This document shows positions 7,037 through 44,618 of a DNA stretch of 46,295 nucleotides, one piece after another. The stretch lies in the IMG/VR virus record IMGVR_UViG_3300012985_000015, positions 1 through 46,295 of that record. One strand, 5' to 3'. Every line of letters starts with the position of its first letter. Position 1 is the stretch's first letter. The notes beneath the pieces were generated by a model. That model saw only the letters and a list, made by a program, of their open reading frames with translations. It searched no databases and had not been told where the DNA came from. This stretch comes from a virus. Both the position numbers and the translations under genes were made by a program.

Positions 7037-9406
7037 TTAGATGCCCGTCTTTCCTTGCTTCTTGAGTTTGATTTCGTCCTGTTTGATCTTGACGTTCTGT
7101 TCTTCCAAATCCAGTTTTCGATGGGCTTGCTGAGCTTGTACGCCCTTAACAAAGTCATCCGACACCTGCTGGTCTTTGGCGATAGACAACTTGACATTAA
7201 GTTCATCGGCGGCTTGCTTATCATCGGCAGCAAGTTGCAGAAGAGCCACATCACGCTTGGAAGCCGCATCCATTGCTCTGGCCTGTGCTTCATTGTTACG
7301 GGTGTTGTAGTTCTCCATAGCCTGTTGGTGAGCCATTTTAGCCTCTTCCAAGCCTTGCGCTGCTTCAAACTTGATTTTGTCGGCGTCATTCTGGACGCTT
7401 TGCTGGTGAGCCTGAGCGTTGATAATGTCAGCTTGCGATTTGAGCGTTGCGGGGTCTGGGTTGTTGGCCGCCTCTTCCGCTGCCTTCTGCTGCAACAATT
7501 TGACCTCTTCGTCGCTGCGGACGATCGAGTCATAAGGAATGTTCATGCCAACCAATCGTGCACGGAGAAGCGCACTGCGGTCCACGAGGAACTTCATGTC
7601 CGGGTCTTGTGAGGCCTCTACAGACAAACGCTCAAGATCGCGTTGACCAATGATCTTGTTCAAATAGGCTGTGCTGGTTTGAACGTCGATGTCATAATCG
7701 CCCTTCAGGTCTTCCTTTTCGGAATACTGCATATTCCATTCGTAAAACCATCCAACAACAGGCTTGGTGATGTTGTCATCCCATTCACGAGCCTTGGACG
7801 CTAGTACTGTCGTTGACGATTGCATACGCAGCGTCATACCTGTGGCGCCGCCGTCGTTAACTTCTGTATCGCCAAGCCCGCCCGCAATCAACGGGACAAT
7901 CGACTCCTCTTCACCAAACTCGCGTGCAGTGTTAAGCACCTGCATGAGCATTTCAATGTTGTTAGGTGGGAAAAAGAATTGAATAGCTTCGCCGACATTC
8001 GTCCCGACTCCATTTTCAGTGAAATACCATACCTTGCCGGGCGTGATTTCAGGCTTACCGTCAATCGGCTTAATGGTTTCTTTGTTAATGGCCACTTGCG
8101 GAAGTGCCGCAAGACCGGCATTGTCAAGCACCTTACGATAGCAGTTGTCCACGACACGCTGGGCGTCGCGGAGAAGAATCGAACCGAAGCCGAACAGCGA
8201 AGCAGGGTCGGGCTCCCACACATTTACTGCGAATGGAAGGCAAAGGTCGGCCTCTAGCAGCTCCAACGAAGCATAAATTACCTTGCCCTGACACACCCAA
8301 ATCTCCGCTTTATACATATCGTGCGGATTTTTGTATGGAGGATCAATTCCTAGACGGCCAAGATCGTCAATTCCCACCGTGCCGTGCCACTCAAGGGCAA
8401 TGTACTTGTTCTCTAGGAACTTGGTGTTGTCGTACTGGATGGCGCGGGCTCTAAAAGCCGTGTAGCTATTTGTCGGCACGCCCTTCAATTGTTCCGCGAT
8501 TACTTCGCCGCGGAATCCGTATTGCTTTGTGAGCATACGGTATTGTGTAGGCGTGAAGATATGGACAACAGTGGCGTGTTCAGCCTCCCTGATGTCCAGC
8601 GCTCTATGATCAGGGTAGAACAACCACACCGGAATTTGGTCGAAACACGGCGCTGGCTCCTCGGTGTAGGCTGTCACCCACAACGACTTACCTTCACTTG
8701 AAGCGGTTCTATATCTAACCTTGTTGCACTTATTTTTGTTGAATGGGCCTTTGTAGACAGCCGTGCCATACCAAAGCATGCTATCAAAACCATCACGCAT
8801 CTTCTGTCCATAGTTGACATTGGACAGTTGGCACCATACCTCTTCATCCATCTTGCGGGCACATTCGTCGTCTTGCTGACTTTGTTGCATCGCAAGCTGT
8901 CCAACGGTCATTTGCTGGCCGTCGGGGCCCATCATAGGAGAAATGCCGTCCGCCTGAAATACAGGACTTTGATTGGCGATTTGGGTTTGAACTTTTACAG
9001 GCTTCTTGGCCTTGATAGTGAAGTTCTTATCGGTACCAGCCCCAAACTGGAGCATTTCCAGTTGAGCCTTGCCAATCTTCATCTTTGGACGGACAATATT
9101 GAAGCCCGGATGATCTTCATATACCTTGTTGTCGTTCTTGAAAGGGTCATTGGTGTCATCATTAGCCCAACGGTTCCAATAACGGAACATACTTCCAAGC
9201 TTCAAACGCTCAGACCAATACCACTCAATCTCCTTACGTTGACGCATGGAGGCATCGAGGATAAACTTACCCTCGATATCCTTTGCAAGAAGGTCTAGCT
9301 GACGCTGCTCTTCTTCTAGTTTGGCTTTTTCTTCCTCATAAATGCGGTACATCTTCTCTTCATCCAGAGAAGGACTAGCATTTACGGCGTAGAGAGCATT
9401 AGGCAT
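7037..9406 (-). CDS. Portal protein
   Basis: 789 aa, the usual size for podovirus portals with a barrel extension. It includes an N-terminal coiled coil (EEEKAKLEEEQRQ), the YWSERLKLGSMFRYWNRWAN segment, a central wing and clip region (EECARKMDEEVWCQL, SMLWYGTAVYKGPF), and a domain with KPVVGWFYEWNMQYS. A long C-terminal Ala/Gln-rich helical tail runs from about residue 660 to the end, resembling a barrel domain. It lies directly after the terminase nuclease gene, sharing one base, and before the scaffold. It should form the dodecameric DNA channel. Confidence 0.85.
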   Translation of the reverse strand: MPNALYAVNASPSLDEEKMYRIYEEEKAKLEEEQRQLDLLAKDIEGKFILDASMRQRKEIEWYWSERLKLGSMFRYWNRWANDDTNDPFKNDNKVYEDHPGFNIVRPKMKIGKAQLEMLQFGAGTDKNFTIKAKKPVKVQTQIANQSPVFQADGISPMMGPDGQQMTVGQLAMQQSQQDDECARKMDEEVWCQLSNVNYGQKMRDGFDSMLWYGTAVYKGPFNKNKCNKVRYRTASSEGKSLWVTAYTEEPAPCFDQIPVWLFYPDHRALDIREAEHATVVHIFTPTQYRMLTKQYGFRGEVIAEQLKGVPTNSYTAFRARAIQYDNTKFLENKYIALEWHGTVGIDDLGRLGIDPPYKNPHDMYKAEIWVCQGKVIYASLELLEADLCLPFAVNVWEPDPASLFGFGSILLRDAQRVVDNCYRKVLDNAGLAALPQVAINKETIKPIDGKPEITPGKVWYFTENGVGTNVGEAIQFFFPPNNIEMLMQVLNTAREFGEEESIVPLIAGGLGDTEVNDGGATGMTLRMQSSTTVLASKAREWDDNITKPVVGWFYEWNMQYSEKEDLKGDYDIDVQTSTAYLNKIIGQRDLERLSVEASQDPDMKFLVDRSALLRARLVGMNIPYDSIVRSDEEVKLLQQKAAEEAANNPDPATLKSQADIINAQAHQQSVQNDADKIKFEAAQGLEEAKMAHQQAMENYNTRNNEAQARAMDAASKRDVALLQLAADDKQAADELNVKLSIAKDQQVSDDFVKGVQAQQAHRKLDLEEQNVKIKQDEIKLKKQGKTGI

Positions 9407-10170
9407 CAGTCAGATGTAAACTTGTATGGATTGGTGTATTTGTAGCCACTATCGTCTGTGGCGTAAATCAATTTGGCGAATCTCTGGCCCATAACACCAT
9501 AACGCATGGCGTCCATAAGGTGATCGTTCTTCTTGACAATCTTCCCTTCAACATCGCGCTGATACATCGAATATTCTTTCAGAACAGCGGTGCAGCGGCG
9601 GAAGATTTTAAGGCGGCCAGTGGAGAATCGTTCCCAACAAACGTGAATACCAGCCTCTACGGCATTTTCAGCGGGGCGGCAATCCAGCCCTTCTTTGCGA
9701 TACTCTACGATGAGGCGTCTGCCGTCCACTTGACTACGACCTTTTGAGGCCGGATCGATCATAATTGGATGCTTGTTGCCCTTGCGGCGTTTGATGGCCG
9801 AGGCGACAACGGCGGGATCGGCATTAGTGGCTGTATACTCGTCGACGATGTAGATAACGTCATTATCAGGGTCGATTGCCAAGCTGACATAGGCTGTGCA
9901 TGTTCTTCCTACATCCAACCCACCAAGTCGCTTCCAATGGGCAGGCACTTCGATGTAATTGCCCTTTGAATCTTTTGTGTAATCGTAAATGATGTCGTCT
10001 TGCGGTACTTGGTAGACGTTACCGGCACCCATTGTGGGGTTGCCATATACCACGGCTGGAATGAGATGGGGCTGTGTTGTTCTTTTAATCTCTTCGATGC
10101 GGGCTTCTGTTAGATGCCCTGCATCGTACATACTTGCCACTACATACGCTTGACCCTTAATCGTGCTCAT
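9406..10170 (-). CDS. terL: Large terminase, C-terminal nuclease part (separate frame)
   Basis: 254 aa. It carries the RNase H-like nuclease half of TerL: GGLDVGRTCTAYV gives the first Asp (motif I), VDEYTATNADP the second acidic site, and KKNDHLMDAMRYGVM the C-terminal acidic motif. The N-terminal ASMYDAGHLTEARIEEI is the segment that normally follows the ATPase core in intact TerL, so the protein begins about where the ATPase frame ends. Its ATG lies 14 bases inside the upstream frame (+1 relative). The in-frame stop just upstream means it cannot simply extend. Either a split terminase or a frameshift. Confidence 0.85.
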   Translation of the reverse strand: MSTIKGQAYVVASMYDAGHLTEARIEEIKRTTQPHLIPAVVYGNPTMGAGNVYQVPQDDIIYDYTKDSKGNYIEVPAHWKRLGGLDVGRTCTAYVSLAIDPDNDVIYIVDEYTATNADPAVVASAIKRRKGNKHPIMIDPASKGRSQVDGRRLIVEYRKEGLDCRPAENAVEAGIHVCWERFSTGRLKIFRRCTAVLKEYSMYQRDVEGKIVKKNDHLMDAMRYGVMGQRFAKLIYATDDSGYKYTNPYKFTSD

Positions 10171-10993
10171 ACATCTCTTTCTTCTTTGGCGTTACATCAA
10201 CCGCCTTTTCCGTGAAGTCTTTCAGCAAGGCAGTCCAGCCAAGCAAAGGAGTGAACGTTACAATGAAGGTTCCATTTGTAGTTGTGAGACGGATATAGGC
10301 TTGGTTCCAAATGAGCGGAGCATCTTTGCCAGCCGGTTCTTCGTCCAACCAAACAATGTCTACAGGTTTTCCGTAGAAAGACTCTGGTCCTGATTGATAG
10401 GTCTTGAATTTGATCTGAGAAAGCTTGCTGTTAGCGTGTCTCACCCAGATAGAATCTACTGTACCGCCCGTATTGGGTCTGATTACGATGTCGTAGATGT
10501 TTTTCTCTGCGATGAGGCCCGTGCCTTTTGGGGTTCCTAGGAATTTGCTTTGTAGGATTTCCCTTACGGTGTCGTTTGTGTCTCCACAGGCCCACACTAC
10601 AGGGGCTTTGTCAAACACTCGACCTTGCCACCAATCGGGATAGTCTCCTGTTGACCAACAGCTAATGGCATACGCGCCACTCGTAGTCTTGCCTGTCTGA
10701 TTGCTTGCTCTAAAGAGAACCTGTTGATATTCAGATGTAGCATCAAAAAAAGCTTTGTGGGCCGGATAATGCTCGATGCTAAGTGGGGTTTCGGGCTGAA
10801 ACAGCTTGACTAGATGCCCGCCCGTTTCTTCGATATTCTTGTAGTGCTCAATCAGTTTCAGGGCGTACATCAAATCCTGAGGGCTTCCGGTCAGTTCTTT
10901 GACCTCCTTTGCCTCAAATTTCTTCAGGATTTTGTTCAGTTTACCTTGTTCTTCTGGTGTTACGCTAAATTGGGGCCGCAAGCTGCGGGGCAT
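10157..10993 (-). CDS. terL: Large terminase, N-terminal ATPase part
   Basis: 278 aa. It contains the packaging ATPase core: Walker A ASNQTGKT at about residue 97, an adenine or coupling region, and Walker B VDIVWLDEEP with its catalytic Glu at about residue 217. The coupling motif region FIVTFTPLLGW follows. The frame stops soon after (KKKEMYEHD), before the linker and nuclease normally present in a roughly 500-residue TerL. The nuclease lies in the next overlapping frame. ATP-driven DNA translocation and motor assembly on the portal is the expected job. Confidence 0.88.
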   Translation of the reverse strand: MPRSLRPQFSVTPEEQGKLNKILKKFEAKEVKELTGSPQDLMYALKLIEHYKNIEETGGHLVKLFQPETPLSIEHYPAHKAFFDATSEYQQVLFRASNQTGKTTSGAYAISCWSTGDYPDWWQGRVFDKAPVVWACGDTNDTVREILQSKFLGTPKGTGLIAEKNIYDIVIRPNTGGTVDSIWVRHANSKLSQIKFKTYQSGPESFYGKPVDIVWLDEEPAGKDAPLIWNQAYIRLTTTNGTFIVTFTPLLGWTALLKDFTEKAVDVTPKKKEMYEHD

Positions 10994-14712: not shown

Positions 14713-14789
14713 TGGCACGCTCGGGCGGACTTAAACCGCCAACCCCGAGCTTAGAAGGCCCGTGCTCTATTCGGTTGAGCTACAAGCGT
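14713..14789 (-). tRNA. tRNA-Arg (anticodon TCT)
   Basis: A full cloverleaf can be drawn: a 7-bp acceptor stem with one G-T pair, a D arm GCTC/GAGC, an anticodon stem with loop CTTCTAA, and a perfect 5-bp T stem around TTTAAGT. The discriminator is G and CCA is encoded. It reads AGA codons, rare in many high-GC hosts. It is the last of five tRNAs in the minus-strand order. Confidence 0.9.
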
Positions 14790-14795
14790 ATAAAA

Positions 14796-14871
14796 TGGTG
14801 CCGGCAGAAGGTCTCGAACCTCCGGCCTGATGCTTACAAAGCAACTGCTCTACCTACTGAGCTATGCCGGC
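14796..14871 (-). tRNA. tRNA-Thr (anticodon TGT)
   Basis: The acceptor stem GCCGGCA/TGCCGGC is perfect, the D stem is GCTC/GAGC, the anticodon loop is TTTGTAA, the T loop is TTCGAGA, and CCA is encoded. The anticodon stem has one T-T mismatch. It decodes ACA. Only six bases separate it from the tRNA-Arg gene. Confidence 0.92.
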
Positions 14872-14872
14872 G

Positions 14873-14944
14873 TCTGCATGGAGTGAATCGAACACCCTTA
14901 AGCTAGCTCCCAAAGCTAGTGGTCAACCAATGACCCACACGCAG
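14873..14944 (-). tRNA. tRNA-Pro (anticodon TGG)
   Basis: The acceptor CTGCGTG pairs with CATGCAG (one G-T). The D stem is GGTC/GACC, the anticodon stem CTAGC/GCTAG is perfect with loop TTTGGGA, and the T stem is GGGTG/CACTC. The discriminator is A, and the bases after it are CG, so CCA is not encoded and must be added. Its 3' end is one base from the tRNA-Thr start. Confidence 0.9.
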
Positions 14945-14952
14945 AAAAATTG

Positions 14953-15019
14953 AGCGCCACTAGGGACTCGAACCCTACTTGTCTGGCTTGGAAGGCCATG
15001 AGGGACCGTTCCGTAGCGC
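14953..15019 (-). tRNA. tRNA-Gly (anticodon TCC) with shortened D arm
   Basis: The acceptor GCGCTAC/GTGGCGC, T arm TAGGG/CCCTA and anticodon loop CTTCCAA are clear. Only 13 bases lie between acceptor and anticodon stems instead of about 18, so the D arm is reduced to roughly GGA, ACGG, TCC. The tRNA is about 67 nt and CCA is not fully encoded. It decodes GGA. It may be degraded or an unusual functional tRNA. Confidence 0.75.
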
Positions 15020-15028
15020 ATTTTGAAA

Positions 15029-15102
15029 CAGAGGCGGTAGGGCTCGAACCTACGCATGCAGGCTTCAAAGGCCCGTGCCTTAACCAGCTTGGCTACGCCT
15101 CG
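15029..15102 (-). tRNA. tRNA-Gln (anticodon TTG)
   Basis: The anticodon stem CGGGC/GCCTG carries loop CTTTGAA, giving TTG. The T stem GTAGG/CCTAC with TTCGAGC is perfect and the discriminator is G, as usual for Gln. The 1-72 pair is a mismatch, a known trait of tRNA-Gln acceptors. It decodes CAA. CCA is not encoded. Confidence 0.85.
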
Positions 15103-15150
15103 ACAATCTGAGCTGCCTTGGGTTAGTTCGGTGTGGCAGCTACCGAGGGC

Positions 15151-31975: not shown

Positions 31976-32217
31976 TGAACTCCGTTCTGTCCCAATCCCT
32001 GTATGGGCAGGTGGAGGCGCTTCGCCGCCTAGAGTACAATCACCATGAAGCTCTCATCATGGCCCAATCGCTCATCCGCATCCTCAGTGAATACCTACCT
32101 GAGACATCGGAGAGCTATCAAAAACTACTAGACAGGATCAGGGACTATGATTACGCTGACGCTGCGGACCATAGAGGAAGACGGGAGTTTGGAAATCGGC
32201 ATCAAGACGAATTGTGA
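31975..32217 (+). CDS. 80-aa helical protein
   Basis: 80 aa from the ATG overlapping the previous stop. Helical (YGQVEALRRLEYNHHEALIM, SYQKLLDRIRDYDYADAAD). The N-terminal extension of the longer frame is unlikely. It overlaps the next gene by 71 bases. Unknown. Confidence 0.6.
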   Translation: MNSVLSQSLYGQVEALRRLEYNHHEALIMAQSLIRILSEYLPETSESYQKLLDRIRDYDYADAADHRGRREFGNRHQDEL

Positions 32218-32320
32218 AGAGAGCACCGATCCCGGAGCTTTTGAAGCCATGTACAAAATCCTAGGCTTTCTTCAAGAACAAGGCATCGTCCAATCTGACA
32301 ACTCAATGAGGATACACTGA
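32147..32320 (+). CDS. 57-aa hypothetical protein
   Basis: 57 aa, MITLTLRTIEEDGSLEIGIK, then a helical end (EAMYKILGFLQEQGIVQ). The ATG lies inside the preceding gene. The sequence after its stop repeats GAGGATACACTG seen at 38376. Likely real because it has alpha/beta alternation, but support is modest. Confidence 0.5.
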   Translation: MITLTLRTIEEDGSLEIGIKTNCEESTDPGAFEAMYKILGFLQEQGIVQSDNSMRIH

Positions 32321-32343
32321 CATGACATCGAAGAGCCCCCAGA

Positions 32344-33999
32344 ATGCGTAAGAAAACAGCATGCCCTAGCTGTGGTCCTAGGGATGTCAGTGGTAACAAC
32401 CTTCTTCTCTATGAAGACTCTGACACCCTCGGCTACTGCTTCCAATGCCAGAAAACCCTAAGCACAGAGAAAGCAATGCCCCCTCAGACGAAGAACAAGG
32501 ACGACAGCTTGGAATTGGCAGCCATTGCTTCGCTGCCTTTCCGTGTTTTGGAAGATCGCAACATCTCCAAGGAGACGTGCCAACGTTTTGGTGTTCGTGT
32601 CGCTCTGGATGAGCAGACGGCCTCTGAAGTGACAGACCATTATTACCCCTACTACCTGAATGGGGAGATTACGGGGTATAAGAAGCGTACGCTCCCGAAG
32701 CACTTCGCTGTTCTTGGGAAGGTGAAGTCGCTATTCGGTCAGGAACAGGCCAAGAAGAATGGCCGCATGCTGATTGTCGTGGAAGGGGAGATTGATGCTC
32801 TGTCTACGTGGGAAATCCTTCAGCAGAAGGGTAAGGCGTACAACGTCGTGAGCCTCCCCAACGGAGCTAATGAGGCAGGCCAACTAGACGCAGCAACGCG
32901 TTCCCAATTGGAATTCTTCACAGCCCACGAGCTTGTAGTGATTTGCCTTGATGAAGATGCTCCGGGACAAGCCACAGCGCAAGCTTTGGCCGAACTCCTC
33001 GTGAGCCAGTGCAAGGTGAAAATCATGCGCTTGGCCCGTAAGGATACGAACGAATACCTCAAGGCAGGCGACATCGACGGCTGGTGGAGTGCTCTCCTCG
33101 GGGCTAAGGACTATGTTCCTGAGGCCATCGAGAACGGCTCTGTGGACAATTTGGACGAACTAACTACGCCCACGCCTCCGGGTGTGTTCGTAGGCTGTCT
33201 GCCGCAGACGATGAAGAAGATGTATGGCCTTCGCCCCGGTGAAATCACGTTGATACTCGCCCCACCCGGTGCGGGAAAGACCACGCTTTGCCGTCAGATT
33301 ACGTACGACCTCCTGCGCAAGCAGGATGGACCCGTCTTCAACATGTTCTTGGAGGAAGGCAAGACCAAGACCCGACAAGGCATTGTGGCCTTGCATGCAG
33401 GGGTGGCCCTCAATCACTTCCGCCGCGATCCGAAGGTGGCTAAACGATCGGCAATCGAAGATGCCAACAACAACGTCCTCTCTAAGCTTGAGATGCTGAC
33501 AAACAATAAGGTGCTTCTCAATGACGAGGCATTGCTGAACAAGATCAATTTCTTTGCCAAGGCCAAGGGCTGTAAGTATGGCGTCTTGGATCACATCTCC
33601 TATGTCCTGTCCAGCCGAGACAGTAAGGATGAACGCAAGGAAGTGGATCAGTTGATGACGAAGCTGTCGCAGCTTGTCGAAGATCAGGGCCTCCATTTGA
33701 TTGTTGTCTCCCACATCAAGCGCAAGCAGCGAGACAGGGACAAGGCCGGAAGCCAGAAATACCCCTATTGGGAAATCCTAAGCCTTGACGACGCGCGCAG
33801 CAGTGGAGCATTCGAGCAGCTTTGCCACAATGTGATTGCACTAGAGCGACAGATTTGCGATCCTAGCGATGCCAGCCCAAAGCCGCTTAGCCGTACACGC
33901 ATCCTCAAGAACCGAGAGGAAAGTACGCTTGGCTTGGGTGACTACTTGATGTACAACACACAGAAGGGCGCTCTAGAACCTGTTGAAGCGGAGTATTGA
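32344..33999 (+). CDS. DNA primase-helicase, T7 gp4 type
   Basis: 551 aa. The N-terminal zinc site is CPSCGP and CFQCQK (residues about 6-39). A TOPRIM domain follows (LIVVEGEIDALST, then VVICLDEDAPGQATA, with acidic metal residues). The C-terminal RecA-type helicase has Walker A APPGAGKTTLCRQI, a motif around LDHISYVLSS, and IVVSHIKRKQ. Length and order match bifunctional phage primase-helicases of the T7 type. It unwinds DNA and makes primers at the replication fork. The start ATG has a weak ribosome site. Confidence 0.93.
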   Translation: MRKKTACPSCGPRDVSGNNLLLYEDSDTLGYCFQCQKTLSTEKAMPPQTKNKDDSLELAAIASLPFRVLEDRNISKETCQRFGVRVALDEQTASEVTDHYYPYYLNGEITGYKKRTLPKHFAVLGKVKSLFGQEQAKKNGRMLIVVEGEIDALSTWEILQQKGKAYNVVSLPNGANEAGQLDAATRSQLEFFTAHELVVICLDEDAPGQATAQALAELLVSQCKVKIMRLARKDTNEYLKAGDIDGWWSALLGAKDYVPEAIENGSVDNLDELTTPTPPGVFVGCLPQTMKKMYGLRPGEITLILAPPGAGKTTLCRQITYDLLRKQDGPVFNMFLEEGKTKTRQGIVALHAGVALNHFRRDPKVAKRSAIEDANNNVLSKLEMLTNNKVLLNDEALLNKINFFAKAKGCKYGVLDHISYVLSSRDSKDERKEVDQLMTKLSQLVEDQGLHLIVVSHIKRKQRDRDKAGSQKYPYWEILSLDDARSSGAFEQLCHNVIALERQICDPSDASPKPLSRTRILKNREESTLGLGDYLMYNTQKGALEPVEAEY

Positions 34000-34000
34000 T

Positions 34001-34258
34001 ATGAAAAAGTTGAATGTCCCTTTGTATTTTGCTTGCTCAAATCTATACCATGTGAGCAAAGTAATGATGGGGAGATGGAACGACGAACTAGGAAGTTATT
34101 GGGACGCCGACGGTGAATATGATTGCACTAAGTTAGGTCACAACTCGTGCATCGAAGATGGCCCTTGTTCAACGTTTTCTTCAACCTCTAAAAAAGAAGT
34201 ACAAGCGTACGTTTTGGGACAACAAGACCTCCGTCGTGTATTGAAATCTAGCCTATGA
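34001..34258 (+). CDS. 85-aa hypothetical protein
   Basis: 85 aa from the ATG at 34001, immediately after the helicase stop. Contains a Tyr/Asn-rich start (NVPLYFACSNLYHVSKVM) and several Cys. ATGA overlap with the exonuclease gene suggests coupling. Unknown. Confidence 0.6.
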   Translation: MKKLNVPLYFACSNLYHVSKVMMGRWNDELGSYWDADGEYDCTKLGHNSCIEDGPCSTFSSTSKKEVQAYVLGQQDLRRVLKSSL

Positions 34259-34716
34259 AGGCATGGATTGATATTGAGACGGACAATCTCTCTCCATTCT
34301 ATACGCGTATATGGTGTGTGAGTGTTTGTCTGGATTCCTCTGGCGAGTGTCAAACGTACACAGACCGAGAGAGCTTCCTGAAGGCGTCCAAGGAATGGAC
34401 GGAGATTGGAGGGCACGGCATTCTGTCCTTTGATCTGTTTGCCTTGTGGTTGTTGTGGGGCATCCCTTTCACTGTAGGACCAGACACGTTCAATGGCAAG
34501 CCTGTCAAGTTCATTGACAGCCTCGTCATGTCTCGCTACTTGCACCCAGATCGGGGGCTTCATGGACTTGAGGAATGGGGCGAGAGATTAGGACTGCCCA
34601 AGCTCGACCACAAAGACTTCACTTGCTACAGCGAAGAAATGCGTGTATACTGTGAACGCGACGCAGCCCTGTCAAGGGCGGTATATCACTACTTGCTGAA
34701 AGAGGAGATGAGCTGA
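34255..34716 (+). CDS. Stand-alone 3'-5' exonuclease domain of a T7-type DNA polymerase
   Basis: 153 aa. Motif I is WIDIETDNL (Asp-x-Glu at residues 5-7). Motif II is the segment ILSFDLFALWLL with its Asp at about 60. Motif III is YCERDAALSRAVYHYL with Asp at about 134. This corresponds to roughly the first 185 residues of T7 gp5 but with no polymerase domain after it; the polymerase is a separate gene 1.5 kb away. It should proofread in trans if it pairs with the polymerase. Confidence 0.88.
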   Translation: MKAWIDIETDNLSPFYTRIWCVSVCLDSSGECQTYTDRESFLKASKEWTEIGGHGILSFDLFALWLLWGIPFTVGPDTFNGKPVKFIDSLVMSRYLHPDRGLHGLEEWGERLGLPKLDHKDFTCYSEEMRVYCERDAALSRAVYHYLLKEEMS

Positions 34717-35060
34717 TGCCTTGGGCAATTGCGGTTGCTGCTATAGGCGCAGCGATGAATAAAGAGAGCAGTATCCCGGATATCAGTATGGGAACGATCT
34801 ACACTGACACTACGCGGACCAAGCCAAAAGAGAAGCAGTGCGGATGGAAATGCACGGGATGTCACGCAACCAACGGTGCCCACGAATCCCAATGCTCATG
34901 GTGTAGGACGTATAGACTGGAAGAAAAGGAAGCTCCGACCGATCCACTACCGGCAAAGTGGTACGAAGAAGAATTACGCATGAGAAAGGCAGCCAGAGAA
35001 GCAATACGTAAGAACGACCCGTCTGTCTACAAAGAACATCCGAAGGAGAGTCCGAAGTGA
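34716..35060 (+). CDS. Zinc-finger protein, RanBP2-like
   Basis: 114 aa, TGATG-coupled to the exonuclease. CGWKCTGCHATNGAHESQCS WC gives W-x-C-x2-C-x10-C-x2-C, the spacing of RanBP2-type zinc fingers at about residues 44-60. The C-terminus is charged and ends KEHPKESPK, carrying the CATCCGAAGGAG site for the next gene. Binding to nucleic acid or a partner is plausible; unproven. Confidence 0.65.
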   Translation: MPWAIAVAAIGAAMNKESSIPDISMGTIYTDTTRTKPKEKQCGWKCTGCHATNGAHESQCSWCRTYRLEEKEAPTDPLPAKWYEEELRMRKAAREAIRKNDPSVYKEHPKESPK

Positions 35061-35302
35061 AGAAGCTTATCCTTGTTGTTAGCACGTTGTTGCTTGGAGC
35101 ATGCACATGCCCGAAGGAGGTGCTGGTGTGTTCGTATGGCGGCGAAGAGTCATTCCGAAGTAGGGCCGCCGTTGGCATTAGGGCCATTTACAATGGCCGA
35201 GTTGTCTACCAGATTGGTAGGTGGGGTGACGGCAAAACCTACAATCCTCGCGCGGGAGAATATTGTGAAGTACAACCAGCATCCGAAGGAGCTAACAAAT
35301 GA
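35057..35302 (+). CDS. Putative lipoprotein (81 aa)
   Basis: 81 aa, GTG start coupled to the previous stop. MKKLILVVSTLLLGACTCPK is a signal peptide with lipobox LGAC, so Cys16 would be acylated. The mature part has Cys and a beta pattern (AIYNGRVVYQIGRWGDGKTY). Envelope-anchored small lipoproteins in phages may block superinfection or act in lysis; the role here is unknown. Confidence 0.7.
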   Translation: MKKLILVVSTLLLGACTCPKEVLVCSYGGEESFRSRAAVGIRAIYNGRVVYQIGRWGDGKTYNPRAGEYCEVQPASEGANK

Positions 35303-35439
35303 TTACCAGAGACGTATCAGACAAGGCACTAGCTGACACACTAAACAAGATAGCTGAACAGTATGACGACGCCTGCGGCTGTCCCCGATGGCTGTGGGAC
35401 TTGTACGAAGAAGCAAGAAAGCAGGAGAAGGCAGAATGA
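35299..35439 (+). CDS. 46-aa hypothetical protein
   Basis: 46 aa, with CATCCGAAGGAG 7 bases before the ATG, and ATGA-coupled at the start. Helical acidic (VSDKALADTLNKIAEQYDD) and CGCPRWLWDLYEEA. Ends overlapping the next ATG. Unknown. Confidence 0.55.
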   Translation: MITRDVSDKALADTLNKIAEQYDDACGCPRWLWDLYEEARKQEKAE

Positions 35440-35636
35440 ATCTCTGGAACAAGCTGAACGTTTTCAACAAGCTATTTGCCATCAGCCTCGCCCTGTTCTT
35501 GTGTGTGCTATGGCTAGCGCCATTTTTCCCCTCCAAGTTTGTCTTTTCGCTGTTTTGCACAGGTCTCTTGGCCCTGATTGGCACGTTTGTCGGGGGTGTA
35601 GCGTCTTTCTTTCATTACTATGACAATAGGCCCTAG
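35436..35636 (+). CDS. 66-aa membrane protein
   Basis: 66 aa from the ATG at 35436 with GGAG upstream. Two membrane segments (FAISLALFLCVLWLAPFF and LFCTGLLALIGTFVGGVAS). It ends where the leader element B begins. Unknown; possibly a membrane-association factor for the replication machinery, which would be speculative. Confidence 0.6.
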   Translation: MNLWNKLNVFNKLFAISLALFLCVLWLAPFFPSKFVFSLFCTGLLALIGTFVGGVASFFHYYDNRP

Positions 35637-35748
35637 AACGCTCTAGGAACGCCTAGGAGCCCATCGTGTTCCTACCCGCTACCCTACTACCTCCCCTAGG
35701 CTGTAATGGCCTCAGAACGCTTCCTAGGAGCTTCTAGAGGCATTCTAA
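35630..35748 (+). repeat. Leader element copy B
   Basis: About 119 bases rich in CCTAGG and CTAG, starting at the end of the membrane-protein gene and ending 20 bases before the macro-domain ATG. It shares 14-mers with copies A (AGAACGCTTCCTAG) and C (GTTCCTACCCGCTA). The 5' and 3' arms resemble each other's reverse complement, so the transcript can form a long imperfect hairpin. Confidence 0.7.
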
Positions 35749-35768
35749 CACCATCCCAAGGACTGCAC

Positions 35769-36188
35769 ATGATTGAATACCGAAAAGGAAGTTTGTTTGA
35801 CGCCCCTGAAGACTTTGTTCTGGCCCATGCTTGTAATTGTCGGGGTGTTTGGGGGAGCGGGGTTGCCGTAGAATTCAAGAAAAGATTCCCGCTAGCCTAT
35901 CAGGACTACCGAGAGGAGTGCGCAAAAGGAATGGGCCCCGGATGGGCTAGTTTGTTTGGCAGGGTTGCTTGTCTGTACACTTCGTACGACTATGGCTCCC
36001 GAGTTAGTACGCCCTACCTCATCTTGCACGACACAGGCTCTGCCGTTGCTGATCTTCTCAGACAGACAGATGCTCCGATTGCTATGCCTAAGATCAACAG
36101 TGGCAAGTTTGGAGTGCCTTGGGAAGACACCGAAAAGGTGTTGAATCTGTTCAGTCGTACTTTCTACGTGTATACGAATGAAAGTTGA
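35769..36188 (+). CDS. Macro-domain protein
   Basis: 139 aa from the ATG at 35769; the longer frame runs through the leader element. The fold signature is IEYRKGSLFDAPEDFVLAHA, then CNCRGVWGSGVAVEFKKRFP and IAMPKINSGKFGVPWEDTEK, the ADP-ribose-binding loops of Poa1p-like macro domains (ADP-ribose-1''-phosphate phosphatase type). It overlaps the polymerase start by 11 bases. It would hydrolyse or bind ADP-ribose derivatives. It lies between the split DNA polymerase halves. Confidence 0.82.
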   Translation: MIEYRKGSLFDAPEDFVLAHACNCRGVWGSGVAVEFKKRFPLAYQDYREECAKGMGPGWASLFGRVACLYTSYDYGSRVSTPYLILHDTGSAVADLLRQTDAPIAMPKINSGKFGVPWEDTEKVLNLFSRTFYVYTNES

Positions 36189-37662
36189 TTGGGATGCTGC
36201 GCTGCGGCTTGCTCAGAAGAGCGCCTATCTCCAAGCAGCACAGGAAATCTCTGGCATTCGCTTTGACCAAGAGAAGGCTAAGGCGCTTCTGGAACGCATT
36301 CGCTGCCTGATGTCGGAGATTGAGGCGGACATTGAACCTAAGCTTCCCTCCCGTAAGCTCAAGAAGAGCGAGGAGAACGAATACACCCTGCCGGCCAAGC
36401 CCTTCAAGCAGGACGGGTCTTTCTCCCATCACATGTTGAAGTTTCTTGACCGGCACGGCATTGAGGCAGATGCGACTTCACGCACCCTGCAATGGCAGGG
36501 GCAGCCAGAAACGATTGTAGGAGGAAAACTCCTCCCAGCAACAAAGCCCATGACCCTGAGCAATCAGGATGATCTAAAGGACTGGCTGATTCAGGAAGGA
36601 TGGGAACCCTCGCTGTGGAACTTGAAGAAGGAGAATGGAAAGCCTGTCCGTGATCCGAAGACGAAGGCCACCATTCGCACCACACCCAAAATGCAGGAGA
36701 ACGGCAAACTCTGCCCCAATCTGGAGGAGATGAGCGGTCCTCTTGTAAAACAAGTGGTGAAGTGGTTGTCATGCCGGAATAGACATTCCGTGCTTGAAGG
36801 GTGGCTGTCCAATCCACGATTGGCTTTCGACGGCAAGCTTACGGCAGCGTCTAGCGGCATCACGAATACGTTCCGCCAGAAACATACTGTTGTAGCCAAC
36901 ATTCCCAAGAACAAGGAACATGTCCTGTTCGGCAAGGAGATGCGAGAACTTTTCATTGCCAATGAAGGGCAGGTGTTGGTTGGGTACGATGCTTCTAGCC
37001 TTGAGGACCGGATCAAAGGGCATTTCACAAGTAAATATGACTCGGGCGCCTACGCTGCCAAGATTCTGGCTCCGGGGTACGACCCCCATCAGGAAAATGC
37101 CGATCTGTGGGGGATTGACCGATCTATTGCAAAGAACGGAACGTACGCTCTTGGTTATTTCTGTGGTGTGGACAAACTAGCCACAACAATCAAGTGCAGC
37201 AAACAAGACGCAGCAACGCGCCACCAAGACTATTGGAAACTCAACAGTGCCCTGAAGCAACTAGACGAAGCCCTAGGAGCCCATTGGGAAGCCAACGGTA
37301 AGAAATACATCGTAGGCATCGACGGGAGGAAGGTGTTCTCTCGTCACCGCCACGGCCTTGTCAACCTCTTGATTCAGAGCACAGGATCAATCATCATGGA
37401 CTTCTCAGCAGCATGGATGGACAAAGCTCTTGGTGGGCTAGTTGTAATGGACGGAGAAGTGTGCTATAATGTCAAAGGACATGAGGTGTTTCGTGTAGGC
37501 TTCTTCCATGACGAATACATTTACTCTTGCGATCCTGAAGTGGCAGAATATGTAGCCGAACTAGGCAAGAAGTCGATTCAGAAGGCAGGGGAACATTTCA
37601 AGCTTCGCGTTCCGCTCATGTCGGAAGCCAAAATCAGCACTGATTGGAGTAAGATTCACTGA
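36178..37662 (+). CDS. DNA polymerase, family A (T7 type), polymerase domain only
   Basis: 494 aa. Motif A is VGYDASSLEDRIKGHF (catalytic Asp about residue 270). Motif B is RSIAKNGTYALGYFCG with the Arg, Lys and Tyr of T7 Pol (about residues 316-330). Motif C is FFHDEYIYSC with the His-Asp pair (about residue 444). The N-terminus begins at the thumb, and the exonuclease domain is missing: it is a separate gene at 34255. All catalytic residues are present, so it should be active. It overlaps the macro-domain gene. Confidence 0.92.
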   Translation: MKVDWDAALRLAQKSAYLQAAQEISGIRFDQEKAKALLERIRCLMSEIEADIEPKLPSRKLKKSEENEYTLPAKPFKQDGSFSHHMLKFLDRHGIEADATSRTLQWQGQPETIVGGKLLPATKPMTLSNQDDLKDWLIQEGWEPSLWNLKKENGKPVRDPKTKATIRTTPKMQENGKLCPNLEEMSGPLVKQVVKWLSCRNRHSVLEGWLSNPRLAFDGKLTAASSGITNTFRQKHTVVANIPKNKEHVLFGKEMRELFIANEGQVLVGYDASSLEDRIKGHFTSKYDSGAYAAKILAPGYDPHQENADLWGIDRSIAKNGTYALGYFCGVDKLATTIKCSKQDAATRHQDYWKLNSALKQLDEALGAHWEANGKKYIVGIDGRKVFSRHRHGLVNLLIQSTGSIIMDFSAAWMDKALGGLVVMDGEVCYNVKGHEVFRVGFFHDEYIYSCDPEVAEYVAELGKKSIQKAGEHFKLRVPLMSEAKISTDWSKIH

Positions 37663-37692
37663 ATCACGCATGAACGCAGTGAAGACCCCATA

Positions 37693-37721
37693 TTGACACC
37701 CACCAACATCTAGGCTATACT
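37693..37721 (+). promoter_or_regulatory. Sigma70 promoter with near-perfect hexamers
   Basis: TTGACA, 17 bases, TATACT, then CTAAAGGC. It lies just downstream of the polymerase and upstream of the structured leader and the coiled-coil gene. The start-site neighbourhood matches that of the 28915 promoter. Confidence 0.8.
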
Positions 37722-37727
37722 ACTAAA

Positions 37728-37828
37728 GGCAAGTCGCGAAAGGGGAAGGTAAGAGGTCCGTATCGCAAGGCGAAATGCCCTAGACCCGGTTGCCCGCTTG
37801 TCACAATCACACTCAAGGAGAAAGTGTC
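37728..37828 (+). ncRNA. Structured leader of the 37829 gene
   Basis: The transcript from the 37693 promoter begins near here. GGTC/GACC with an inner GGC/GCC forms a hairpin, and ACACT/AGTGT closes a loop that contains the AAGGAG ribosome site (about 37810-37826). Folding would hide that site, so it looks like a translational control leader. Confidence 0.5.
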
Positions 37829-38338
37829 ATCAAAATCATCGAAGCACTCAAGCGTCTGAAAGACCTCACCATCAAGGCGGAAGACCTCCGCACCAAGATT
37901 GGACAGCACAGCGCCGACCTCAACTACGAGACGCCTGTCTACGAGAATCAGAAGGATCAGGTGGACAGTTGGCTTCAGAGCCATTCTGACATCCTGAAGG
38001 AAATCCTGCGCCTGCGTACCGCAGTGCAGCGCACGAACCTTGAAACGAAGGTGACGATTGATCTGAATGGCAAGGGTGTTACGCACTCGATTGCCGAGTG
38101 GATTCACCGCCGCCGCGATCTTGCTGCCGCAGAGGCTACGGCTTACGCCAAGCTCACCGACCGCAATCTCAAGGAAGGCATGGCGCAGCAGTCGAGCGGT
38201 CAGGCGATTGAAGTGAAAATTCGCCGCTACTACGATGCCAAGACCCGCGATGAAAACATCTCCAAGTACAAGTCGGAGCCGCACATCATTGATTCGACGT
38301 TGGAAGTGACGAACGCTGTCACTGACCTCATCGAATAA
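37829..38338 (+). CDS. Coiled-coil protein, DIP1984-like
   Basis: About 169 aa. The reading frame has no ATG or GTG near the ribosome site; AAGGAG is 8 bases before an ATC at 37829, and a TTG at 37790 lies further upstream without a site. From there IKIIEALKRLKDLTIKAEDL begins a long helical protein, with RTNLETKVTIDLNGKGVTHS resembling the DIP1984/septicolysin-type family. It sits behind a structured leader. Function unknown. The unusual start is open to error. Confidence 0.6.
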   Translation: MKIIEALKRLKDLTIKAEDLRTKIGQHSADLNYETPVYENQKDQVDSWLQSHSDILKEILRLRTAVQRTNLETKVTIDLNGKGVTHSIAEWIHRRRDLAAAEATAYAKLTDRNLKEGMAQQSSGQAIEVKIRRYYDAKTRDENISKYKSEPHIIDSTLEVTNAVTDLIE

Positions 38339-38657
38339 TCCCGTTCAACATTAGCCAACACACAGAGTAAACAACGAGGATACACTGGACGTCGCCGGAC
38401 GACTCTGGCTCCAAACTGCATGGTATGCACAGACCCGTTAAGTCTGTCGTGGTTCGACCCCACACAAACTCTAAAGGTTGAAGGCTCAAGGCTGAAGGAA
38501 GCAAGGGTTAAGACGTTCAAGGTAGCAAGAGGTAAGGTAGGAAGGATAAACACGGCGTCGTAGTCGTGAAATCCGGGTTAAGAGCTGAGGTTCTAGTGCC
38601 TCATCGTTCTCTTCCGGCTTCCTGTTTGGGTGGCTAATCTTTCTTTCGAGGAAATGT
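38339..38657 (+). other. Non-coding region with tRNA-like element and purine-rich tract
   Basis: About 320 bases without a gene. It begins with GAGGATACACTG, repeated from 32306, then a tRNA-like fold (38408-38470), then a G/A-rich stretch (38470-38560) that includes repeated AAGG/GGTA words, and a TGAGG/CCTCA hairpin near 38586. A promoter was not convincingly seen. Purpose unknown. Confidence 0.5.
38408..38470 (+). ncRNA. tRNA-like element, possible degenerate tRNA-Asn
   Basis: TGCA-TGGTA-TGCA makes a D arm. CAGAC/GTCTG with loop CCGTTAA makes an anticodon arm reading GTT (Asn), but position 33 is C rather than T. A T arm GTGG/CCAC with TTCGACC follows. The acceptor stem cannot be formed and the variable region is only one base, so it is probably not an active tRNA. 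Confidence 0.4.
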
Positions 38658-38876
38658 ATGTATCTCAGACTGTTTCAGCTTTTGGGGGCACTGGCGTTGT
38701 TTGGTGTCCTCTTTTCGCAAGTGGTAATTCCCTTGTGGCATCGCAAGCCGACGTGGCCTATGTTTTCAAAGAAACGCTCCGCAATCGAAGATGAATTCAT
38801 CAACACCAACGAGCAAATTGAACTGAAAGCTCTTCAAGAACGTAACAACCAACTCAAGGACAAACTTCATGATTAA
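38658..38876 (+). CDS. Membrane-anchored coiled-coil protein (72 aa)
   Basis: 72 aa with GAGGAA 6 bases upstream. LFQLLGALALFGVLFSQVVI is a membrane segment, followed by a charged coiled coil (NTNEQIELKALQERNNQLKD). It overlaps the SPFH gene by 8 bases, which suggests cotranslation and perhaps a physical partnership. Confidence 0.7.
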   Translation: MYLRLFQLLGALALFGVLFSQVVIPLWHRKPTWPMFSKKRSAIEDEFINTNEQIELKALQERNNQLKDKLHD

Positions 38877-40017
38877 GACCATTGCTTCCGCTGTTGTTGT
38901 CGGCCTGATTGTTCTGTTTGGCTTGGTGGGCACCACCCATCAGGACGCACAGGAAATCCTCATTACGCAGTCGGCCTCCGGTGCACTCACGGTGTATACC
39001 ACGCCGGGCTGGCACTTCGCTCCCTTCTCCAAGACCACCTACTACGACCGGCGCTCTTCGTATGAGTTCCAGTCGCCCATTCGTTTCAATGATGGCGGTC
39101 AGGCTACGATGAAGGGCTCCATCCAGTTTGAGATTCCTACGGATGAGAAGACGCTCATCGACCTGCATTCTAAGTATGGCTCTCAGGATGCTCTGAAGAC
39201 GCAGCTTGTCCAGCGTGTTGTGGACAAGGCCGTGTTCATGTCCGGCCCGCTGATGTCCAGCCGAGAGTCGTATGCTGAGAAGAAGTCGATGCTCGTGAGC
39301 GATGTGGAAGATCAGATTGCGCGCGGCGTCTATCAGACGCGCCAGCATGAAGTGAAGACCGTCGATCCGATTACGGGCGCTGAAAAGACCGTGACGAATG
39401 TCGAGATTGTGACGGACGAGAAGGGCCTTCCGCGTCGACAGGAAGAGGCCGTCCTGACCCCGTTCGGCATCCGCACCTTCAACTTCACCATTGCTGAAAT
39501 CGACTACAGCAAGGACATTGAAGCGCAGATTGCCTCGCAGCAGAAGATTACGATGGATGTGCAGACGGCCATTGCTACGGCCAAGCAGGCCGAACAGCGA
39601 GCCCTCACCGCTGCGAAGGAAGGCGAAGCCAACGCAGCCAAGGCCCGCTGGGAACAGGAAGTGATTAAGGCCAAGGCTGTTACGGCTGCTCAACAGGAGC
39701 TTGAAGTGGCTAAGCTGGCCACGCAGAAGGCCGAGCAGGAAAAGCAGGCCATTATTTTGAAGGCCGAGGGTGAGTCGGAATACAAGCGCAAGATTATCAC
39801 GGCCGATGGTGCACTTCAGCAGAAGCTTGCGGCTTACATCGAAGTGAACAAGAACTACGCCAATGCCATTTCGGCCTACAAGGGCAATTGGGTGCCAACC
39901 ACCGTGTTTGGCGGTACGACGAATGCCGGCGGCGGCGCTCAGGACTTGCTCAATCTCCTGACCGCTAAGACGGCCAAGGAACTGTCTCTCGACACCACTG
40001 TCAGCTCGGGGAAGTGA
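38869..40017 (+). CDS. SPFH/band-7 domain membrane protein
   Basis: 382 aa. Residues 1-25 (TIASAVVVGLIVLFGLVG) form a membrane anchor. The SPFH core follows: ALTVYTTPGWHFAPF, then YEFQSPIRFNDGGQATMKG, then LVQRVVDKAVFM and AVLTPFGIRTFNFTIAEIDY. A long Ala/Glu/Gln coiled coil from about 240 to 320 (EQRALTAAKEGEANAAKARWE) is typical of prohibitin/stomatin/HflK-type proteins that build ring cages in membranes. The C-terminus is Gly-rich. A viral member is unusual; it may control host membrane proteases or superinfection. Confidence 0.85.
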   Translation: MIKTIASAVVVGLIVLFGLVGTTHQDAQEILITQSASGALTVYTTPGWHFAPFSKTTYYDRRSSYEFQSPIRFNDGGQATMKGSIQFEIPTDEKTLIDLHSKYGSQDALKTQLVQRVVDKAVFMSGPLMSSRESYAEKKSMLVSDVEDQIARGVYQTRQHEVKTVDPITGAEKTVTNVEIVTDEKGLPRRQEEAVLTPFGIRTFNFTIAEIDYSKDIEAQIASQQKITMDVQTAIATAKQAEQRALTAAKEGEANAAKARWEQEVIKAKAVTAAQQELEVAKLATQKAEQEKQAIILKAEGESEYKRKIITADGALQQKLAAYIEVNKNYANAISAYKGNWVPTTVFGGTTNAGGGAQDLLNLLTAKTAKELSLDTTVSSGK

Positions 40018-42941: not shown

Positions 42942-44618
42942 TTGGAAGGAACGTTCAGGACTCATATTGCAGAGTCGATCTTTTACAACAAATACGCACA
43001 GGGCCGCAACGATACATGGAAGAACCTTGCCATCCGCCTCGTGGATGATGTCTGCGGGCGAATGGGAGGGGAGGCCCGCCAAACCCTTCTTTCAACGGAG
43101 GACATGAAAGACCTCACCAAATTCATCGTGGACATGAAGTTCATTCCGGGCGGTCGCTATCTCTACTATGCTGGCAGACCACTTCATGCTTGGAACAATT
43201 GTTACCTTTTGAAGGGAGAGGAGGACACAAGGGAAGAGTGGGGAAACATCCTAAAGCGAGCTAGTGACTGCTTGATGAGCGGCGGGGGCATCGGCGTAGA
43301 CTACTCGGTGTTTCGTCCTCGCGGAGCTGCCTTGAAGCGAACAGGCGGTCAAAGCAGCGGGCCTCTGCCGCTGATGAATTCGGTGAACGAAGTAGGTCGA
43401 AATGTTATGCAGGGCGGCTCCCGTCGCAGCGCGATCTACGCATCACTTAATTGGCAGCACGAAGACGCTTCTGCATTTCTTGGCATGAAGAATTGGGCTG
43501 AAATGCCCATTGGTAATGCTACGAAGGAAGATGGTACTCCGTACACCATTTGGGATGCAAAACAGGCCGATTTTAACTATCGTGCTCCTTTGGACATGAC
43601 CAACGTCAGTCTGAACTACGACGACGCTTGGCTTCACAACTCCCAACGGCATTCTGATGCAACATTCCTCAGAAACGTCCGGCAGGCGATGGAAACCGGG
43701 GAGCCGGGATTCAGTTTCAACTTCGGAGACAAACAATACGAAACTCTTCGTAACGCATGTACAGAGGTCACTAGCGAGGATGACAGTGATGTTTGTAACC
43801 TCGGCTCTATCAATCTCGGGAACATCGAGACGCCGGAGGAATTGAAGCGTGTTGTTGAACTGGCTGCGAAGTTTCTCGTTTGCGGTACTATTCGCGCCGA
43901 CCTACCTTACAAGAAGGTGTATGATGTTCGAGAAAAGAATCGTCGGCTCGGTCTTGGACTGATGGGCATCCATGAGTGGCTTCTGAAGCGGGGATCAAAG
44001 TACGAAGTGACTGAAGAGCTTCATAGGTGGCTTAGTGTTTATCGGGACGAATCTGTGAGGGCAGCAAACGAGCACTGTGACCGCTTCTTTCTGTCCCGTC
44101 CGAAAGCCTATAGGTCCATTGCTCCTACGGGCACAATTGGAATGCTGGCTTCCACGACGACAGGTATTGAACCGCTCTTCGCAGTCGCCTACAAGCGACG
44201 CTATCTGAAAGATGGCACGCGTTGGCACTACGAATATGTAGTGGATGCTACGGCCGATTTGCTCATCAAACAACTTGGCATCAACCCGTTGGACATTGAC
44301 AGCGCTTACAAGATGGCCTCGGATTTTGAACGTCGCATCAAGTTCCAAGCCGATGTACAAGACTACGTAGACATGGCCATTAGTTCTACGATCAATCTCC
44401 CTGCTTGGGGAACAAAGCTGAATAACGAAGACAAGGTGGAAGACTTCGCTAAAACGCTAAGCGCATATGCCCCGCGCCTTCGAGGTTTCACGGCTTACCC
44501 AGACGGATCACGCGGTGGCCAGCCACTTATCGAAGTGGACTATGACACAGCCGTAGCACATAAGGGTGTTGTATATGAAGAACACAGTAGTTGTGCCGGC
44601 GGCGTGTGTGGCATTTGA
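42942..44618 (+). CDS. nrdJ: Adenosylcobalamin-dependent (class II) ribonucleotide reductase
   Basis: 558 aa from a TTG with AGGAGAAAGG upstream. WNNCYLLKG holds the first redox Cys, SGGGIGVDYSVFRP is a substrate-loop signature, GGSRRSAIYASL follows, and the catalytic NACTEV motif (N-x-C-x-E) is at about residue 270, with DVCNLGSINLGNI supplying the second redox Cys. APTGTIGMLASTTTGIEP is conserved in these enzymes. The C-terminal CAGGVCGI has the Cys pair that accepts reducing equivalents. It makes deoxynucleotides. No separate small subunit or flavodoxin gene is near, as expected for class II. Confidence 0.9.
   Translation: MEGTFRTHIAESIFYNKYAQGRNDTWKNLAIRLVDDVCGRMGGEARQTLLSTEDMKDLTKFIVDMKFIPGGRYLYYAGRPLHAWNNCYLLKGEEDTREEWGNILKRASDCLMSGGGIGVDYSVFRPRGAALKRTGGQSSGPLPLMNSVNEVGRNVMQGGSRRSAIYASLNWQHEDASAFLGMKNWAEMPIGNATKEDGTPYTIWDAKQADFNYRAPLDMTNVSLNYDDAWLHNSQRHSDATFLRNVRQAMETGEPGFSFNFGDKQYETLRNACTEVTSEDDSDVCNLGSINLGNIETPEELKRVVELAAKFLVCGTIRADLPYKKVYDVREKNRRLGLGLMGIHEWLLKRGSKYEVTEELHRWLSVYRDESVRAANEHCDRFFLSRPKAYRSIAPTGTIGMLASTTTGIEPLFAVAYKRRYLKDGTRWHYEYVVDATADLLIKQLGINPLDIDSAYKMASDFERRIKFQADVQDYVDMAISSTINLPAWGTKLNNEDKVEDFAKTLSAYAPRLRGFTAYPDGSRGGQPLIEVDYDTAVAHKGVVYEEHSSCAGGVCGI

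Follow-up and report, generated by a model that had tools for sequence, protein, structure and literature searches.

The replication locus

The window analysed here is the whole 46,295-nt record IMGVR_UViG_3300012985_000015 of an uncultured phage; it is linear, and its left end truncates one ORF. The replication genes lie on the plus strand and the structural genes on the minus strand. A preliminary description had claimed that a T7-type DNA polymerase is divided here into an exonuclease gene and a polymerase gene, with about 1.5 kb of unrelated genes (zinc finger, lipoprotein, membrane, macro domain) between them. This layout was confirmed. Both ORFs are present on one strand at 34255-34716 and 36178-37662, both match the DNA polymerase profile phrog_17 in adjacent stretches, and the 1461-nt gap holds genes of the kinds described. 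The two activities that T7-type enzymes carry on one polypeptide are thus encoded by two ORFs, 1461 nt apart. The locus comprises the following genes.

32344-33999, plus strand: T7-gp4-like primase/helicase (phrog_239, E 2e-130), upstream of the exonuclease
33983-34258, plus strand: 91-aa ORF, known only as an ORF, sitting between primase and exonuclease and overlapping both
34255-34716, plus strand: stand-alone T7-type (DEDDy) 3'-5' exonuclease of 153 aa, the proofreading half (phrog_17; AF2 model; best PDB match T7 gp5; conserved D6, E8, D60, Y132 and D136)
34716-35060, plus strand: small zinc-finger-like protein in the gap (WKCTGCHATN...CSWC; CxxC...CxxC), by sequence reading; Pfam and PHROGs families all below threshold
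35057-35302, plus strand: small lipoprotein-like protein in the gap (LLLGAC lipobox), by sequence reading
35388-35636, plus strand: small membrane protein in the gap, by sequence reading; no Pfam match
35706-36188, plus strand: macro domain protein in the gap (Pfam Macro E 2e-11, phrog_335 E 1e-24), with an 11-nt overlap with the polymerase start
36178-37662, plus strand: family A DNA polymerase of 494 aa without exonuclease domain (phrog_17 and Pfam DNA_pol_A; T7 gp5 by sequence and fold; motifs A, B and C intact)

The window shares with LUZ24 and phiEco32 the layout of separate exonuclease and polymerase genes with the primase upstream of the exonuclease.

Two complete halves of a T7-type enzyme

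The exonuclease ORF matches phrog_17 over profile positions 674-827 (E 1e-23) and the polymerase ORF over 834-1232 (E 5e-69), and a second comparison gave 674-828 and 832-1245; the polymerase ORF also matches Pfam DNA_pol_A (E 9e-14). Since a single profile covers both halves in adjacent stretches, the cut falls in the linker, at the domain boundary where it had originally been placed. The exonuclease had also been equated with the first third of T7 gp5, which is an overestimate: its 153 aa correspond to T7 residues 1 to about 187 of 704, roughly the first quarter. AlphaFold models were made of each half alone, with alignments built from the window and locus sequences. The exonuclease model has a pLDDT of 97.4 and finds T7 gp5 as its best PDB structure match. 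The polymerase model has a pLDDT of 94.1, and among solved structures this half matches T7 gp5 best, both by sequence and by fold.

Are the catalytic sites retained? In the alignment, exonuclease residues D6, E8, D60, Y132 and D136 map onto T7 D5, E7, D65, Y170 and D174, while polymerase residues D271, R315, K319, Y323, H444, D445 and E446 map onto T7 D475, R518, K522, Y526, H653, D654 and E655. This one-to-one correspondence agrees with the earlier statements that polymerase motifs A, B and C are kept and that both halves preserve their catalytic residues. The further statement that exonuclease motifs I-III are intact holds for the catalytic Asp, Glu and Tyr residues, but not for the Exo II Asn (T7 N60), which is present in 69 of 77 aligned sequences and is Gly55 in the window. 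The protein is a DEDDy exonuclease with Exo I-III in which this one Asn has been swapped, and the activity of the window exonuclease may be weakened by the change. The L014 exonuclease has retained the Asn. The polymerase carries a thumb insert, at about residues 53-124, in the place of the T7 thioredoxin-binding loop; it aligns to T7 258-333 and is similar in length, but its sequence is not conserved. No thioredoxin gene was found in the record.

One polymerase encoded by two genes

Within the record, the only polymerase match is the split one: no second family A polymerase, family B polymerase or polymerase III alpha was found in these 46,295 nt, the record being linear with an ORF truncated at its left end. 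Could the two ORFs be exons, or split-intein pieces, whose products are joined after transcription or translation into one polypeptide? There are precedents that invite the idea, as the LUZ24 polymerase gene does carry a group I intron and the UFV-P2 paper names the halves exons. However, no Rfam covariance model matched at E up to 1 across 32000-38500, whereas the same library detected the known group I intron of LUZ24 as a positive control. Both halves possess start and stop codons of their own and form complete folds that end a few residues from the domain border, so there is no room for split-intein pieces. In relatives, moreover, the gap holds other genes or is absent. We therefore regard joining into a single chain as highly improbable and treat the ORFs as two genes with separate products.

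The same split in relatives and the growth of the gap

The survey set comprised 178 sequences, window included, of which 151 are fused and 23 separate; several loci stem from repeated retrieval of one contig. The separate ones include 12 further IMG/VR contigs that group with the window and three records that belong to the LUZ24/phiEco32 type. The window type thus consists of 13 contigs, window included, in eight lineages at 95% polymerase identity. An assembly error or a decaying polymerase gene might be suspected in one metagenome-derived record, but 12 further contigs with the same split, intact ORFs and purifying selection make this explanation scarcely credible. Further independent splits were considered for Kolga and PS32B.1, in both of which the exonuclease is annotated 'hypothetical protein', and for 172P1 and HTVC142P; all of these are fused. 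No cultured relative with a window-type split was present in the phage collection searched, where the best polymerase match is the fused enzyme of Pseudomonas phage vB_PsaM_M1 (42-50%) and the right part of the window has no nucleotide-level match.

The distance between the two genes varies widely within the window type. In L133 the gap is 0 nt: the stop codon of the exonuclease gene overlaps the start codon of the polymerase gene (TGATGA) and no gene lies between them. Gaps of intermediate size are found in L098 (168 nt), L099 (173), L019 (247), L128 (250), and L008 and L127 (413 each), and the largest in L007 (1209), the window (1461) and L014 (1623). The window and L014, its nearest relative, carry unrelated genes in the gap; their exonucleases are 53% and their polymerases 66-67% identical. 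The L007 gap contains a DNA methyltransferase gene (Pfam N6_N4_Mtase) whose end duplicates the 3' end of the exonuclease gene. The methyltransferase gene is missing from L127, whose flanks are 96.6% and 99.5% identical to those of L007. In this pair one insertion of a gene into the gap can be seen directly. A search for direct repeats flanking the gap gave nothing informative. The polymerases of L007 and L127 are near-identical but their exonucleases only 90% alike; therefore, the halves can be exchanged by recombination.

Two peculiarities of individual relatives are recorded here. The L127 exonuclease gene (L127:6988-7533) is a mosaic: its 5' part is 96.6% identical to L007, and its 3' part differs and has an additional loop ahead of Exo III, a sign of recombination within the gene. 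At L133:2557-4781 the polymerase gene is interrupted by a 214-aa ORF that looks HNH-type endonuclease-like by eye; it has no Pfam match, and no Rfam intron match was obtained.

Origin of the split

The window shares with the LUZ24/phiEco32 group the same cut region and a similar order of primase, exonuclease, small genes and polymerase, which would be expected if the split had been inherited by descent from a common split ancestor. The trees speak against this. A polymerase tree of 30 rows unites LUZ24, BroderSalsa and phiEco32 in a clade (100/99) close to fused T7-type enzymes and groups the window type with fused Ounavirinae-like enzymes (99/99). Constraining all split rows to one clade costs 114 log-likelihood units, and the AU test rejects it (p-AU 2.6e-90); fused T7-type lineages stand between the two split groups. 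A 70-row polymerase tree agrees in placing the split groups apart. When these intervening fused lineages are left out, in a 28-row set, the one-clade constraint is not rejected (p 0.225); the case for independence therefore rests on the wider 70-row and 30-row sampling. Taken together, these comparisons make common descent of the two splits very unlikely. Judged by the trees, the window-type split arose independently of the LUZ24/phiEco32 split, from a fused ancestor. For a single cut versus several among the eight window-type lineages, the AU test gave p values of 0.21 (30 rows) and 0.29 (28 rows).

The exonuclease tells a similar story. With the exception of L098 and L099, window-type exonucleases join the fused clade with which the polymerase groups (93/95). 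With the two trees in agreement on this clade, descent of both halves from a single fused gene is the simplest reading. Import of the exonuclease from an unrelated phage was considered and rejected, as the exonuclease tree groups it with the fused clade of the polymerase, and the polymerase clade, when forced on the exonuclease data, was not rejected (p 0.25).

Constraint on the separated exonuclease

Separation might be expected to free the exonuclease from selection. In close split pairs, where rates are measurable, dN/dS is 0.12-0.23 for the exonuclease and 0.03-0.24 for the polymerase, so both halves are under purifying selection. The ratio of exonuclease to polymerase divergence is 1.29 in split pairs versus 1.57 in fused pairs; separation therefore did not relax the constraint on the exonuclease.

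Does the exonuclease then still serve the polymerase? It might instead act alone, in recombination, end processing or host DNA breakdown, leaving the polymerase to replicate without proofreading. Its separate gene would suit such a role, as would the substitution of Gly55 for the Exo II Asn, and after T7 its structural neighbours include the stand-alone DEDD nucleases NrnC and WRN exonuclease. T7 gp5, however, is the best fold match, ahead of those nucleases. In every split locus found, the exonuclease lies near the primase, which is upstream on the same strand, and near the polymerase. The exonuclease evolves in step with the polymerase, their divergences being correlated across split pairs (r 0.81), and it is never lost: all 82 loci found by polymerase alone also carry it, fused in 70 and split in 12. 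We consider an independent nuclease unlikely and prefer a proofreading exonuclease that works with the polymerase.

Other features of the record

Several features elsewhere in the record deserve mention. The terminase large subunit is also encoded by two overlapping ORFs (9406-10170 and 10157-10993, minus strand); the ATPase part corresponds to phrog_2 267-404 and the nuclease part to 427-600, and PHROGs has a separate family for each piece, phrog_31467 and phrog_5653. Either a frameshift or a second gene split could account for this. An array of five tRNAs occupies 14713-15103 on the minus strand: Arg(tct), Thr(tgt), Pro(tgg), Gly(tcc) and Gln(ttg). Downstream of the polymerase, at 38869-40017, lies a gene for an SPFH/Band 7 (stomatin-like) protein, an unusual cargo for a phage. 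The ribonucleotide reductase (42942-44618) is only 558 aa long and has a TTG start. The gene at the matching place in L014 encodes 1047 aa and resembles it only weakly, over a short stretch, as if the type of ribonucleotide reductase had been replaced between the two.

A model for the two-gene polymerase

Based on these observations, we propose that both genes go back to a single fused gene for a T7-type DNA polymerase, severed in the linker that joins its two domains. At first the separated genes probably lay side by side, the stop codon of one overlapping the start codon of the next as it does in L133, and unrelated small genes would afterwards have gathered in the gap. The products would be the two chains of a single replicative polymerase. 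In this model the exonuclease (DEDDy, 153 aa) most likely docks on the 494-aa polymerase at the site that the exonuclease domain occupies in T7 gp5 and proofreads in trans, with host thioredoxin possibly seated on the thumb insert that the polymerase has kept. This reading of a two-chain replicase is supported by the conservation and linkage of the genes, by their shared history and by a constraint that has not relaxed. We judge it probable as a whole; association of the chains, proofreading in trans and use of thioredoxin are the parts that we infer. Our literature search, made mostly without subscription papers, found no biochemical test of association between exonuclease and polymerase for any split system. 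A separate proofreading subunit is familiar from E. coli DNA polymerase III, in which the alpha and epsilon subunits (DnaE, DnaQ) play these parts, and the window pair would be alike if a heterodimer forms. DnaE is not homologous to the window polymerase, however, and DnaQ is a DEDDh enzyme, whereas the window exonuclease is DEDDy.

How does the locus compare with known phage systems? In all phages of the LUZ24 group, the polymerase and the proofreading exonuclease have a gene each, as had been reported for phiEco32 (phage tf paper, PMC3517423), and the exonuclease is separately encoded in the whole Kuravirus group and several relatives (PMC9965538). The phiEco32 record is likewise annotated with a polymerase lacking both exonuclease domains. 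This kind of arrangement is therefore already known; what is new is a member of independent origin, without a cultured representative in the collection searched. The LUZ24 group (Bruynoghevirus and relatives: LUZ24, PaP3, tf, UFV-P2, BroderSalsa) resembles the window in its separate T7-type exonuclease and polymerase, its upstream primase/helicase and the 1.6-2.3 kb of unrelated small genes between its halves. It differs in that both proteins sit in another branch, their split being of independent origin, and LUZ24 also has the group I intron inside its polymerase gene. The phiEco32/Kuravirus relatives (YF01, 7-11, Privateer) share the stand-alone 3'-5' exonuclease adjoining the primase/helicase and a polymerase annotated without exonuclease domains, but about 8 kb separates their halves and the polymerase is sister to LUZ24, not to the window. 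T7 gp5 and the Ounavirinae-like polymerases have the same two domains and catalytic residues in a single polypeptide; that of vB_PsaM_M1 is the nearest phage record by polymerase (43%). In MEP401-type OM43 phages two ORFs also encode the polymerase, but the cut lies inside the polymerase domain and the exonuclease stays with the N-terminal part of the polymerase.

What are the implications of a second split? Separate exonuclease genes had previously been noted in LUZ24-like and phiEco32-like phages and treated as a feature of those groups. With a second, independent split and intermediates spanning 0 nt to 1.6 kb, the path from a fused enzyme to a two-subunit replicase can be traced, and the split loci supply small, tractable protein pairs for testing T7-type proofreading in trans. 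On balance, and by a narrow measure, we favour the view that phages have at least twice independently turned a single-chain T7-type polymerase into a genetically two-subunit replicase that would proofread in trans, and that the freed boundary may have become a landing site for cargo genes and a point at which phages can exchange the exonuclease subunit with one another.
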